Positions 10,008 to 50,965 of a stretch of 64,000 nucleotides of DNA are shown in pieces. The notes beneath the pieces were generated by a model. That model did no database searches. It saw only the letters and a list, made by a program, of their open reading frames with translations, and had not been told where the DNA came from. The stretch lies in the NCBI RefSeq assembly GCF_014698845.1, contig NZ_JACJTV010000018.1:1-64000 (forward strand), in the 5' to 3' direction. Every line of letters begins with the position of its first letter. The first letter of the stretch is position 1. Source of the DNA: Coleofasciculus sp. FACHB-1120 (GTDB lineage Bacteria > Cyanobacteriota > Cyanobacteriia > Cyanobacteriales > FACHB-T130). The position numbers and the translations under genes were made by a program.

Positions 10008-10970
10008 ATGAAACCTTCCGTTAGTTTAATTCGTGCGAATTCCTACAATCGGCAATTATTGCGAGAATCGGTGGAAAGTTTGCTGGAACCGTTGGGAGGA
10101 ATCAAAGCTTTTGTCAAAGCAGGCGATCGCGTTCTCCTTAAGCCCAATTTACTCACTGGTGGGCATCCGAGTAAAGAATGCGTCACCCGTCCCGAACTGG
10201 TTCACTGTGTTGCCAAACTGGTACAAGAAGCCGGTGGAAAGCCTTTCCTGGGAGACAGTCCCGCGTTTGGCAGCGCGATGGGTGTGGCAAAGGCAAATGG
10301 TTATCTTCCCCTCATGGAAGAACTCAATTTGCCGCTAGTGGAATTTACAGGGAAGCGTTACGAAACCGTTAGCGAAGGGTTCAACCATCTGTTGTTGTGC
10401 AAAGAAGCAATGGATGCAGATGTAGTAATCAACCTGCCTAAACTGAAATCCCACTGTCAGCTAACGATGACAATGGGGGTCAAAAACTTATTCGGTTGCG
10501 TACCGGGAAAAATGAAAGCCTGGTGGCACATGGAAGCGGGGAAAGATAGTGCCCGATTTGGGGAAATGTTAGTAGAAACTGCAAGGGCAATTAATCCTAC
10601 CCTAACGATTTTAGATGCAATTATCGGGCATGAAGGGAACGGCCCTAGCGGTGGCGAACCTCGCTTCCTAGGAATTTTAGCGGCATCGGCTGATGTATTT
10701 GCCCTGGATCGGGCGATTGTGGAAATTCTCAATGTAGATCCTCTCAACGTCCCTACTATGGCGGCTTCGATGAGGTTAGGACTATGCACAAATGTGGAGG
10801 AAATTGACTTTCCCCAACTGCATCCGGATGATCTAAAGGTGCTGGATTGGCAACTTCCTACTAACATGATGCCTATCGACTTTGCAATGCCTCGCGTGAT
10901 TAAGTCTACGTTTAGGCATCTTTATATCCGGTTTATCAAGGAACCGATGAATGCTTACGCAGGACGGTAA
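10008..10970 (+). CDS. DUF362 domain-containing protein
   Basis: A 320-residue protein of the DUF362 family. Recognisable family segments are the N-terminal GDRVLLKPNLLTG, the glycine-rich FLGDSPAFGS, NLPKLKSHCQ, GVKNLFGCVPG and GHEGNGPSGG. Many relatives carry a ferredoxin-type iron-sulfur region, but no four-cysteine 4Fe-4S motif is seen here, so this is the cofactor-free short form. The start at ATG 10008 begins MKPSVSLIRANSYN. It is soluble with no signal peptide. The biochemical role of this short form is not established. It stands alone, followed by the candidate small RNA unit. Confidence 0.85.
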   Translation: MKPSVSLIRANSYNRQLLRESVESLLEPLGGIKAFVKAGDRVLLKPNLLTGGHPSKECVTRPELVHCVAKLVQEAGGKPFLGDSPAFGSAMGVAKANGYLPLMEELNLPLVEFTGKRYETVSEGFNHLLLCKEAMDADVVINLPKLKSHCQLTMTMGVKNLFGCVPGKMKAWWHMEAGKDSARFGEMLVETARAINPTLTILDAIIGHEGNGPSGGEPRFLGILAASADVFALDRAIVEILNVDPLNVPTMAASMRLGLCTNVEEIDFPQLHPDDLKVLDWQLPTNMMPIDFAMPRVIKSTFRHLYIRFIKEPMNAYAGR

Positions 10971-11051
10971 GAGTTTATCGATAAAAAAACTTGGTTTTTA
11001 TCAAAACTGGGTTTGGAAAGCTATCAAATAAACAACTTTGAGGCAGATTCG

Positions 11052-11094
11052 GTAAATTCTGTTACAGTAGGATACAAAATCATCAGCGTAATCT
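11052..11094 (+). promoter_or_regulatory. NtcA-activated type promoter
   Basis: The palindromic NtcA consensus GTA-N8-TAC occurs at 11052-11065 (GTAAATTCTGTTAC). It is followed after 23 bases by a -10 box of the TAN3T form (TAATCT, 11089-11094), which is the published architecture of NtcA-activated promoters. Transcription would start near 11101. There is no protein-coding start downstream, only a short stretch ending in a strong terminator. Confidence 0.7.
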
Positions 11095-11100
11095 ATTATC

Positions 11101-11155
11101 TACCCTCCGATTGCTTAGGAAGACCGCCCTGACTCATGCTAGAGGCGGTTTTTTT
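11101..11155 (+). ncRNA. nsiR4: candidate NtcA-dependent small RNA, probably NsiR4
   Basis: From the predicted start near 11101 to the end of the T-run at 11155 is about 55 bases with no open frame. The 5' part is C/T-rich (CCCTCCGATTGC) and the 3' part is an intrinsic terminator hairpin. An NtcA box with a correctly spaced -10 lies directly upstream. This layout (NtcA promoter, short RNA, terminator with ACCGCC/GGCGGT stem) matches what I recall of NsiR4, the nitrogen-stress RNA that represses the glutamine synthetase inactivating factor IF7. The architecture is seen directly; the name is from memory of the family and should be treated as probable. The 5' end is estimated. Confidence 0.6.
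11123..11155 (+). terminator. intrinsic terminator of the candidate small RNA
   Basis: ACCGCC (11123-11128) pairs with GGCGGT (11144-11149) around a 15-base loop and runs straight into seven T residues (11149-11155). No gene stop lies close upstream: the DUF362 stop is 150 bases away. Confidence 0.85.
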
Positions 11156-11234
11156 CTGTCTGCCAAATGATGGAGTGTTAGCAGCGCTGCGCGGACGGTA
11201 TATTTTTAAAAACGAGTCTGATGTGTTTTCTAGA

Positions 11235-11480
11235 TTAAAGATCGAAATAACGCCGGAACCGAGGATCTAAATGGTTGGTTTTGCGCTGGTTACAGGGGAG
11301 ACAGAGGGTTTGTAGGTTGCTAATGTCATTGGAACCGCCACGAGAGAGCGGTATGATGTGGTCAATCGTGAGGTTTGCTTCTAGTGCCGTTTTGCCGCAA
11401 CTTTGGCACTGACAGCGATCGCGCTGGAATACATACTTCCTCACTTCTGGCGGGATGCGAATTCTGGGCGTTTTAGTCAT
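11235..11480 (-). CDS. HNH endonuclease family protein
   Basis: An 81-residue HNH protein. The metal and active-site motif is clear: CQSCG near the centre, DHIIPLSRGG with the catalytic His, N-x-x-N in SNDISNLQTLC, and a second Cys pair LCLPCN, forming the zinc-ribbon-supported HNH fold. The ATG at 11480 (MTKTPRIRIPPEVR) is preferred to the upstream start at 11507 because RIRIPPEVRKYVFQRD is the usual start region of this small family. It is likely a DNA or RNA nicking enzyme, but free-standing short HNH proteins are common in cyanobacteria and their substrates are mostly unknown. It is divergent from the next gene, 33 bases away. Confidence 0.85.
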   Translation of the reverse strand: MTKTPRIRIPPEVRKYVFQRDRCQCQSCGKTALEANLTIDHIIPLSRGGSNDISNLQTLCLPCNQRKTNHLDPRFRRYFDL

Positions 11481-11513
11481 AAAATGCTCTTGTAAACACG
11501 ATCCCACGCTGCA

Positions 11514-23131: not shown

Positions 23132-23401
23132 ATGAGCAGCGAAACCTATTTAAATCACCCTACATTTGGCTTACTTTACAGAGTATGTCTGCTTGAGGAC
23201 AGCCAGGAACTATTTACGACCCTTTATGCCCAACGTCTCTTCTTTTTGGTGAATACCAGTCCTACGGGCATCACGTTTGAACCGATTACCCGCAGTGATG
23301 GTCGCCTCATGGTGGAAAACCGTTTGCGGATGCTCCGTCGCAACGGTCAAATGGAGGAGTACACCCAACTTCAGGCTATTCATAAGCGAACATTTCAATA
23401 G
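23132..23401 (+). CDS. pipX: PipX, co-activator of NtcA
   Basis: An 89-residue PipX, the small cyanobacterial protein that swaps between the PII signalling protein and the nitrogen regulator NtcA and so links 2-oxoglutarate level to NtcA-dependent transcription. The Tudor-like N-terminal domain (YLNHPTFGLLYRVC, YAQRLFFLV, FEPI) and the two C-terminal helices (NRLRMLRRNG, EEYTQLQAIHKRTF) match the known protein closely. The ATG at 23132 gives exactly the usual 89 residues; the start at 23126 would add two. pipY follows 85 bases downstream, the conserved arrangement. An NtcA-type small RNA promoter occurs elsewhere in the window (11052). Confidence 0.93.
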   Translation: MSSETYLNHPTFGLLYRVCLLEDSQELFTTLYAQRLFFLVNTSPTGITFEPITRSDGRLMVENRLRMLRRNGQMEEYTQLQAIHKRTFQ

Positions 23402-49675: not shown

Positions 49676-50965
49676 GTGAAAAAAGTTCTAAGCATCATTC
49701 TCGGAGGTGGCGCAGGCACCCGCCTTTACCCGCTGACCAAGCTGCGAGCTAAACCAGCCGTGCCTCTGGCAGGAAAGTATCGCCTGATCGATATTCCCGT
49801 CAGTAATTGCATTAACTCAGAGATTTACAAAATCTACGTCCTGACCCAATTCAACTCAGCTTCCCTCAACCGCCATATTGCCCGCGCCTACAGTTTCGCT
49901 GGGTTCACAGAAGGGTTTGTGGAGGTGCTAGCTGCCCAGCAAACGCCAGAAAACCCCAACTGGTTCCAAGGCACTGCCGATGCTGTCCGCCAGTATCTTT
50001 GGCTGTTGGATGAGTGGGACGTTGATGAGTACCTGATTTTGTCAGGAGATCATCTCTACCGCATGGACTATCGTCAGTTCGTGCAACGCCACCGCGACAC
50101 TAATGCCGATATCACCCTCTCCGTTGTGCCAATGGATGAGCGACGAGCGTCTGATTTTGGCTTAATGAAAATTGATGACACCGGACGGGTGGTAGATTTC
50201 AGCGAAAAGCCTAAAGGCGATGCTCTGAGGGAAATGCAGGTCGATACGACGACGCTGGGATTAAGCCCGGAGCAAGCGAAGAAAAATCCCTACATCGCCT
50301 CAATGGGGATTTATGTCTTCAAAAAAGAGGTGCTGATGGAGCTGCTGCAAACTAACCAAGATCGAACCGATTTTGGGAAGGAGATTATTCCAGCTTCGGC
50401 GCAGGATTTTAACGTCCAAGCTTATTTATTTAATGACTACTGGGAAGATATTGGAACGATGGAGTCGTTCTACGAGGCGAACCTGGCTCTCACCAGGCAA
50501 CCGCAGCCGCCTTTTAGTTTCTACGATGAGGAGGCTCCGATTTACACTCGCGCTCGTTACTTACCGCCCAGTAAGCTATTAGATTGCCAAATTACCGAGT
50601 CGATTATTGGGGAAGGCTGCATCCTGAAAGAATGCCGGATTGAGCATTCTGTTTTGGGAGTGCGATCGCGCATTGAATCGGGTTCCTTAATTGAAGACTC
50701 CCTCGTCATGGGTGCCGACTTATACCAACCCTTCGCCGAACGACAAGCTCACTGTGAAGACGGTAAAGTTCCCTTGGGCATTGGTTCAGATACCCGGATT
50801 CGCCGCGCCATCATCGACAAAAATGCTCACATTGGTTGCAATGTGCAAATCATCAACAAAGACAGAGTGGAAGAAGCTGAGCGCGAAAGCGAAGGCTTCT
50901 ACATCCGTAGCGGCATTGTTGTGATCCTGAAAAATGCCGTGATTCCGGATGGAACCGTCATTTAG
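49676..50965 (+). CDS. glgC: glucose-1-phosphate adenylyltransferase (ADP-glucose pyrophosphorylase)
   Basis: A 429-residue enzyme, the usual cyanobacterial length, that makes ADP-glucose from glucose-1-phosphate and ATP and controls flux into glycogen. The nucleotide motif [20 protein letters not shown] is at the N-terminus. The active-site and substrate segments [13 protein letters not shown] and VDFSEKPKG follow, and a left-handed beta-helix carrying the 3-phosphoglycerate and phosphate effector site forms the C-terminal third ([34 protein letters not shown]). The start is GTG at 49676, giving the expected [12 protein letters not shown]. It follows ppk1 on the same strand by 206 bases. Confidence 0.96.

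Follow-up and report, generated by a model that had tools for sequence, protein, structure and literature searches.

A predicted short-form nsiR4 gene behind an NtcA-type promoter in Coleofasciculus sp. FACHB-1120

The stretch of DNA analysed here (the window) comprises 64,000 nucleotides of Coleofasciculus sp. FACHB-1120 (contig NZ_JACJTV010000018.1, positions 1 to 64,000), and the locus under study lies at positions 11052-11155 of its plus strand. Upstream is a gene for a DUF362 protein (10008-10970, plus strand; PF04015, E 3.4e-61), which synteny identifies as a conserved neighbour, and downstream, tail to tail with the locus, is a lineage-specific gene with profile matches to HNH endonucleases (11235-11507, minus strand; PF14279, PF01844). 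The window also contains pipX, the gene for the NtcA co-activator (23132-23401, plus strand), which an earlier note, made from the letters alone, had named and which a profile match confirms (PF12058, E 4.8e-42), and a glgC-like gene for an ADP-glucose pyrophosphorylase (49676-50965, plus strand; PF00483, PF25247).

The locus begins with a perfect NtcA-binding box of the form GTA-N8-TAC (GTAAATTCTGTTAC, 11052-11065, plus strand), and exactly 23 bases past it stands the -10 box TAATCT (11089-11094, plus strand), which is found in the same place in the homologues; the promoter elements are thus those described in the earlier note. The centre of the NtcA box falls between 11058 and 11059, that is, at -41.5 for a transcription start at 11100, six bases past the -10 box. 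The accessible text of PMC6316151 places the NtcA motif of NsiR4 around -41.5 in all cases; as the start at 11100 or 11101 was deduced from promoter spacing, this fit is a consistency check. Nine GTA-N8-TAC boxes occur in the window against 5.4 in shuffled sequence, so that the box alone is little proof. The full pattern, with TAN3T at 22-23 bases from the box, has a single occurrence in the 64 kb on both strands; it appeared on average 0.28 times (maximum 3) in 60 dinucleotide shuffles of the window, and shuffling the intergenic region 3000 times produced it on the plus strand in 5 cases.

The predicted RNA of approximately 56 nt (11100-11155, plus strand; its end is set by the T run) would consist of an unpaired 5' part of 17 bases and a terminator hairpin (-17.4 kcal/mol, z -2.4; another fold of the site gave z -3.1). 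The 5' part is the conserved seed TACCCTCCGATTGCTTA (11101-11117, plus strand), predicted to be unpaired and to pair with targets, with a last base that may join the stem; the leader of about 30 bases proposed earlier is accordingly shortened to about 17. The GC stem and T7 run noted before hold up: the predicted intrinsic terminator (11118-11155, plus strand) has a core stem of 11123-11128 with 11144-11149 and a run of seven T at 11149-11155, and such a terminator at the 3' end is a feature by which NsiR4 members are recognized. A terminator scan of the window with a loop limit of 8 did not list the site, probably because its loop exceeds that limit. Covariation in the stem is almost nil (one of eight pairs changed on both sides, with 30 of 500 shuffles equally good), in a test that had no power. 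We considered a short coding frame at the locus and ruled it out, in agreement with the earlier note: no open reading frame of at least 60 aa overlaps the RNA, and of the three plus-strand frames of 11100-11160, read by eye, two hold a stop and the third is without ATG.

Searched at the Rfam gathering thresholds, the window yielded nothing. A permissive search of 10970-11234 returned RF02677 (NsiR4) at 11069-11151 with 31.1 bits (E 2.8e-5; gathering score 40) over all 65 model positions. In this alignment ACCCUCCGAUUGCUUA and the terminator match, while the start of the model comes to lie on promoter DNA and an insertion has to be allowed. Two mutually exclusive forms of NsiR4 that differ in length have been described (PMC6316151, in part), and the NtcA box is separated from the core by 37 bases here, but by 55 at the loci of Crocosphaera and Cyanothece. 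The window therefore carries the short form, which is without the approximately 20 bases between promoter and core, and the low Rfam score follows from their absence, as the start of the model is left to fall on promoter DNA. Apart from these bases, the long form (the Rfam consensus and genome G012) is alike in its core ACCCUCCGAUUGCU, its NtcA-type promoter and its complementarity to gifA, and in G012 also in the upstream DUF362 gene. NsiR4 of Nostoc and other short-form members share the core, the promoter spacing and the DUF362 neighbour with the window; they differ in that Nostocales loci often have GCA-N8-TAC (by eye) in place of the perfect GTA-N8-TAC seen here. In two genomes, G032 and G012 (loci L193/L047 and L195/L217), the sequence past the core is longer and different, and takes the place of the short GGCGG terminator.

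A covariance model built from 21 sequences, with the known members of the window's own family left out (R2), scored the locus at 59.5 bits (E 4.5e-14), with the runner-up in the window at 9.2. Model R1, which includes the window sequence and is to that extent circular, detected a single copy in the genome, at 64.8 bits, with the runner-up at 19.5 among 150 of 2868 candidates scored. All six family genomes examined carry NsiR4. In a set of 40 genomes, this one included, RF02677 gave matches at E <=0.1 in 21, eight of which pass the cut-off; the matches in G019 and G036 have neither the core nor the DUF362 gene and look like chance, and upon inspection of the sequences we accepted NsiR4 in 20 genomes, 19 by RF02677 and G032 by R1 alone. 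Eleven of these 19 genomes, again with this one, score below the Rfam cut-off, which misses real short-form genes.

The 16-base core ACCCTCCGATTGCTTA, present at the locus as in the Rfam consensus, was found in at least 115 contigs, at least 109 of them named cyanobacterial and at least 6 other. Chance alone would yield roughly 120 exact 16-base matches in the 257 Gb collection, so that the core by itself is weak evidence and has to be read together with its surroundings. Of the 109 cyanobacterial matches listed, 96 pass the promoter rule as short form and six as long form (one of the latter, L087, without a -10 box), one is a tie and six fail, and none of the six non-cyanobacterial matches listed passes. 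With a stricter rule (an NtcA-type box with at most one mismatch and TAN3T 22-23 bases on; 107-109 contigs counted per bin), the promoter lies 33-39 bases ahead of the core in 86 of the 109 cyanobacterial matches listed and 54-60 bases ahead in five, and each of twelve other distance bins holds 0 to 2.

The genomic context is similarly conserved. In 86 of the 109 cyanobacterial matches listed, the core has a DUF362 gene upstream within 700 bases and on its own strand; of the others, six are cut by the edge of the locus and 17 have no DUF362 gene in range. The earlier placement between DUF362 and HNH genes is correct for both flanks, and DUF362 is the conserved one; the HNH gene was rejected as a landmark, as it adjoins nsiR4 in just 5 of 134 loci, two of which (L003 and L108, the latter from Trichocoleus sp. 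FACHB-40) apparently represent one contig. In comparison with the Nostoc loci it is confined to close relatives of the window. The upstream DUF362 gene offers an easy way to locate nsiR4. We know of no function that accounts for this linkage. No publication naming DUF362 together with NsiR4 was found in the literature searched, which stops short of the founding paper PMC4653137; the linkage appears modestly new, though it may already be known. A fumarase-type lyase gene occurs in 58 of the 134 nsiR4 loci, and in Nostoc parmelioides FACHB-3921 (L053) the DUF362 gene has changed both side and strand relative to nsiR4, an arrangement such as a local inversion would leave. For Anabaena, PMC4734099 describes NsiR4 and alr3725 as lying tail to tail.

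Both the Rfam score and the position of the locus invite other readings. A score below the gathering threshold would be expected if this were a different NtcA-regulated small RNA, one that shares with NsiR4 only the type of terminator and a CCUCC stretch. However, the core is identical in the named cyanobacterial contigs, most of which have the promoter and locus in common, and the score of R2 was obtained without the window's known family members; a new RNA of the NtcA regulon, which the earlier note had held open, was ruled out on core identity and R2, and we give a different RNA next to no credence. It is scarcely more credible that the terminator belongs to the DUF362 gene and that a processed product of this gene's 3' UTR, as opposed to an independent transcript, makes up the RNA. 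That nsiR4 shares the strand of DUF362 and starts some 130 bases past its stop would suit such an origin, as would the upstream DUF362 gene in the majority of the cyanobacterial matches listed. Against it stand the NtcA-type promoter, which keeps a constant distance to the core in 86 of the 109 matches listed, and an A+T-rich inverted repeat just past the DUF362 stop (10980-11002, by eye), at which the DUF362 mRNA could end. We set the 3' UTR origin aside because the RNA has a promoter of its own, though the terminator may serve both the DUF362 mRNA and NsiR4.

On sequence grounds, then, the stretch 11052-11155 is the gene for NsiR4, the nitrogen-related small RNA already described in cyanobacteria. 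The earlier note's probable NsiR4 is borne out by R2, by the core and the promoter distance across cyanobacterial contigs and by predicted target pairing, with the Rfam score under its gathering value; the covariance match and the conservation in relatives, whose absence it had taken to speak against NsiR4, were both found. Our own results behind this explanation are the anatomy of the locus, homology, the one detected copy, the conserved promoter and locus, and the complementarity to targets; what we infer for this strain is the transcript and where it begins and stops, binding by NtcA, and the pairing together with what it brings about. Almost certainly, this is a short-form nsiR4 gene activated by NtcA, with an RNA of ~56 nt predicted to repress gifA and probably glpX, pgk and glgC as well.

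A search with Synechocystis IF7 as query located gifA in the genome. Its leader contains a GTA-N8-TAC box, as expected for an NtcA-repressed gene, and gaagcaauacggag ahead of the start. Pairing with the gifA 5' leader of the same genome, proposed in the earlier note as a check, is predicted over the ribosome-binding region (-23 to +1, -18.3 kcal/mol), and complementary sites also cover the ribosome-binding regions of glpX (-18.2 kcal/mol) and pgk (-15.8 kcal/mol). Of 105 background genes of this genome, each taken at its best-scoring start, 1, 1 and 4 do at least as well as gifA, glpX and pgk, respectively; the test is conservative, since the background comes in part from loci chosen for seed-like sequence. 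Fully shuffled seeds did as well in 0, 1 and 13 of 2000 cases, and seeds shuffled with CCCUCC kept in 1, 1 and 63 of 2000. The CCUCC of the seed pairs with any strong Shine-Dalgarno sequence, and the pairing reaches past that part (AAGCAGUUG, GCAAUU and GGCAAUCG). Both glpX and pgk are given as Nostoc targets of NsiR4 in PMC8491086 and PMC9196836, as far as these sources were accessible.

The glgC site was found blind. It is the strongest among the 105 background genes (-18.6 kcal/mol), the sole one to beat gifA and glpX, and lies at -20 to -6 of the GTG start of this candidate target (UGGCAAUCGAGAGGU); shuffled seeds do as well in 9 of 2000 cases, and in 1 of 2000 when CCCUCC is preserved. 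It speaks against this target that glycogen is usually built up during nitrogen starvation, so that glgC could be repressed only in part or at certain times. In Synechocystis, ADP-glucose pyrophosphorylase is among the targets of NsiR4 predicted in silico (PMC9196836), the one mention of an NsiR4-glgC link found in the literature available to us, in part as excerpts, and glgC is listed with the starvation-repressed transcripts (PMC12589917, in part).

Across relatives, genomes in which NsiR4 was detected have the stronger target sites for gifA (16 vs. 13 genomes, p 0.002), glpX (17 vs. 13, p 0.002), pgk (16 vs. 14, p 0.001) and glgC (19 vs. 10, p 0.011), using one fixed seed and one-sided rank tests; these p values are only indicative, as the genomes are related, the tests ignore shared ancestry, and the absence of NsiR4 is not proven. 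Sites are weak in some NsiR4 genomes: for gifA in three of 16 (G018, G021 and G030, the last at -7.8 with its own seed), for glpX in G008, for pgk in G018 and G021, and for glgC in G003, G018 and G027. Conversely, strong sites occur without detected NsiR4 in G020 (gifA), in G019, G023 and G024 (glpX and pgk) and in G013 (glpX and glgC). Such sites are among the reasons to consider that the gene is NsiR4 by descent while glpX, pgk and glgC go unregulated here, their complementarity being mainly a matter of Shine-Dalgarno sequence and shared ancestry. A reporter assay failed to confirm any of the glpX and pgk pairs of Synechocystis (PMC9196836, in part), and pgk has the weakest site, the one matched 63 times when CCCUCC was kept. 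On the other hand, the pairing extends beyond the Shine-Dalgarno part, glgC tops the background genes without having been sought, and the sites are stronger where NsiR4 is found. We regard unregulated carbon genes as a serious possibility that falls short of an even chance.

In the published mechanism, NtcA activates NsiR4 on nitrogen shortage and translation of gifA is repressed (PMC6316151, PMC9196836, both in part); our findings leave it unchanged. For the short-form gene described here, 2-oxoglutarate-loaded NtcA, helped by PipX, would bind 11052-11065 when nitrogen is scarce and activate the promoter. RNA polymerase would start at about 11100 and be halted by the terminator that ends at 11155, so that an RNA of ~56 nt results. 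Its unpaired seed, CCCUCCGAUUGCUUA, would pair with target mRNAs over the ribosome-binding region and block their translation. With gifA (glutamine synthetase inhibitor IF7) blocked, glutamine synthetase would stay active, and the carbon genes glpX, pgk and glgC would probably be repressed likewise. What is modestly new is the short form under the Rfam threshold, the linkage of nsiR4 to DUF362, and the presence outside Nostoc of sites in glpX, pgk and glgC, which lend sequence support to extending the Calvin-cycle targets of Nostoc and the glycogen-synthesis target predicted in Synechocystis to another lineage. A wider idea, which we put forward as speculation and hold to be rather doubtful, is that short-form NsiR4 in non-Nostoc filamentous cyanobacteria acts as a joint nitrogen and carbon switch (gifA, glpX, pgk and glgC, with leader sites that tend to be kept with the RNA), and that nsiR4 stays by DUF362 in most lineages seen since both work together.

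The target range of the short form may also be narrower in one respect. Removal of the first seven nucleotides of Synechocystis NsiR4 abolished repression of a pirA reporter (PMC13362535, in part), and the short form is without the 5' part needed for this repression; by analogy, pirA may not be a target here. Genome-wide, near-perfect complements of the seed number 61, against 21 for the pattern read backwards, and in 30 of the 61 loci none of them stood ahead of a gene start as an evident new target. A gene for a DUF4278 protein of 141 aa (L241, G000:C1:87036-87206, minus strand) has a strong complementary site of -17.1 kcal/mol at -19 to -8 of its start, and is by its sequence a possible extra target of NsiR4. 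PirA is presumably linked to DUF4278, and L241 could not be shown to be pirA. A 2018 review, available in part, ties DUF4278 to the N-terminus of IF17. Elsewhere in the genome, an 84-codon frame (G000:C10:117268-117510, plus strand) contains two weak IF7-like stretches in tandem.
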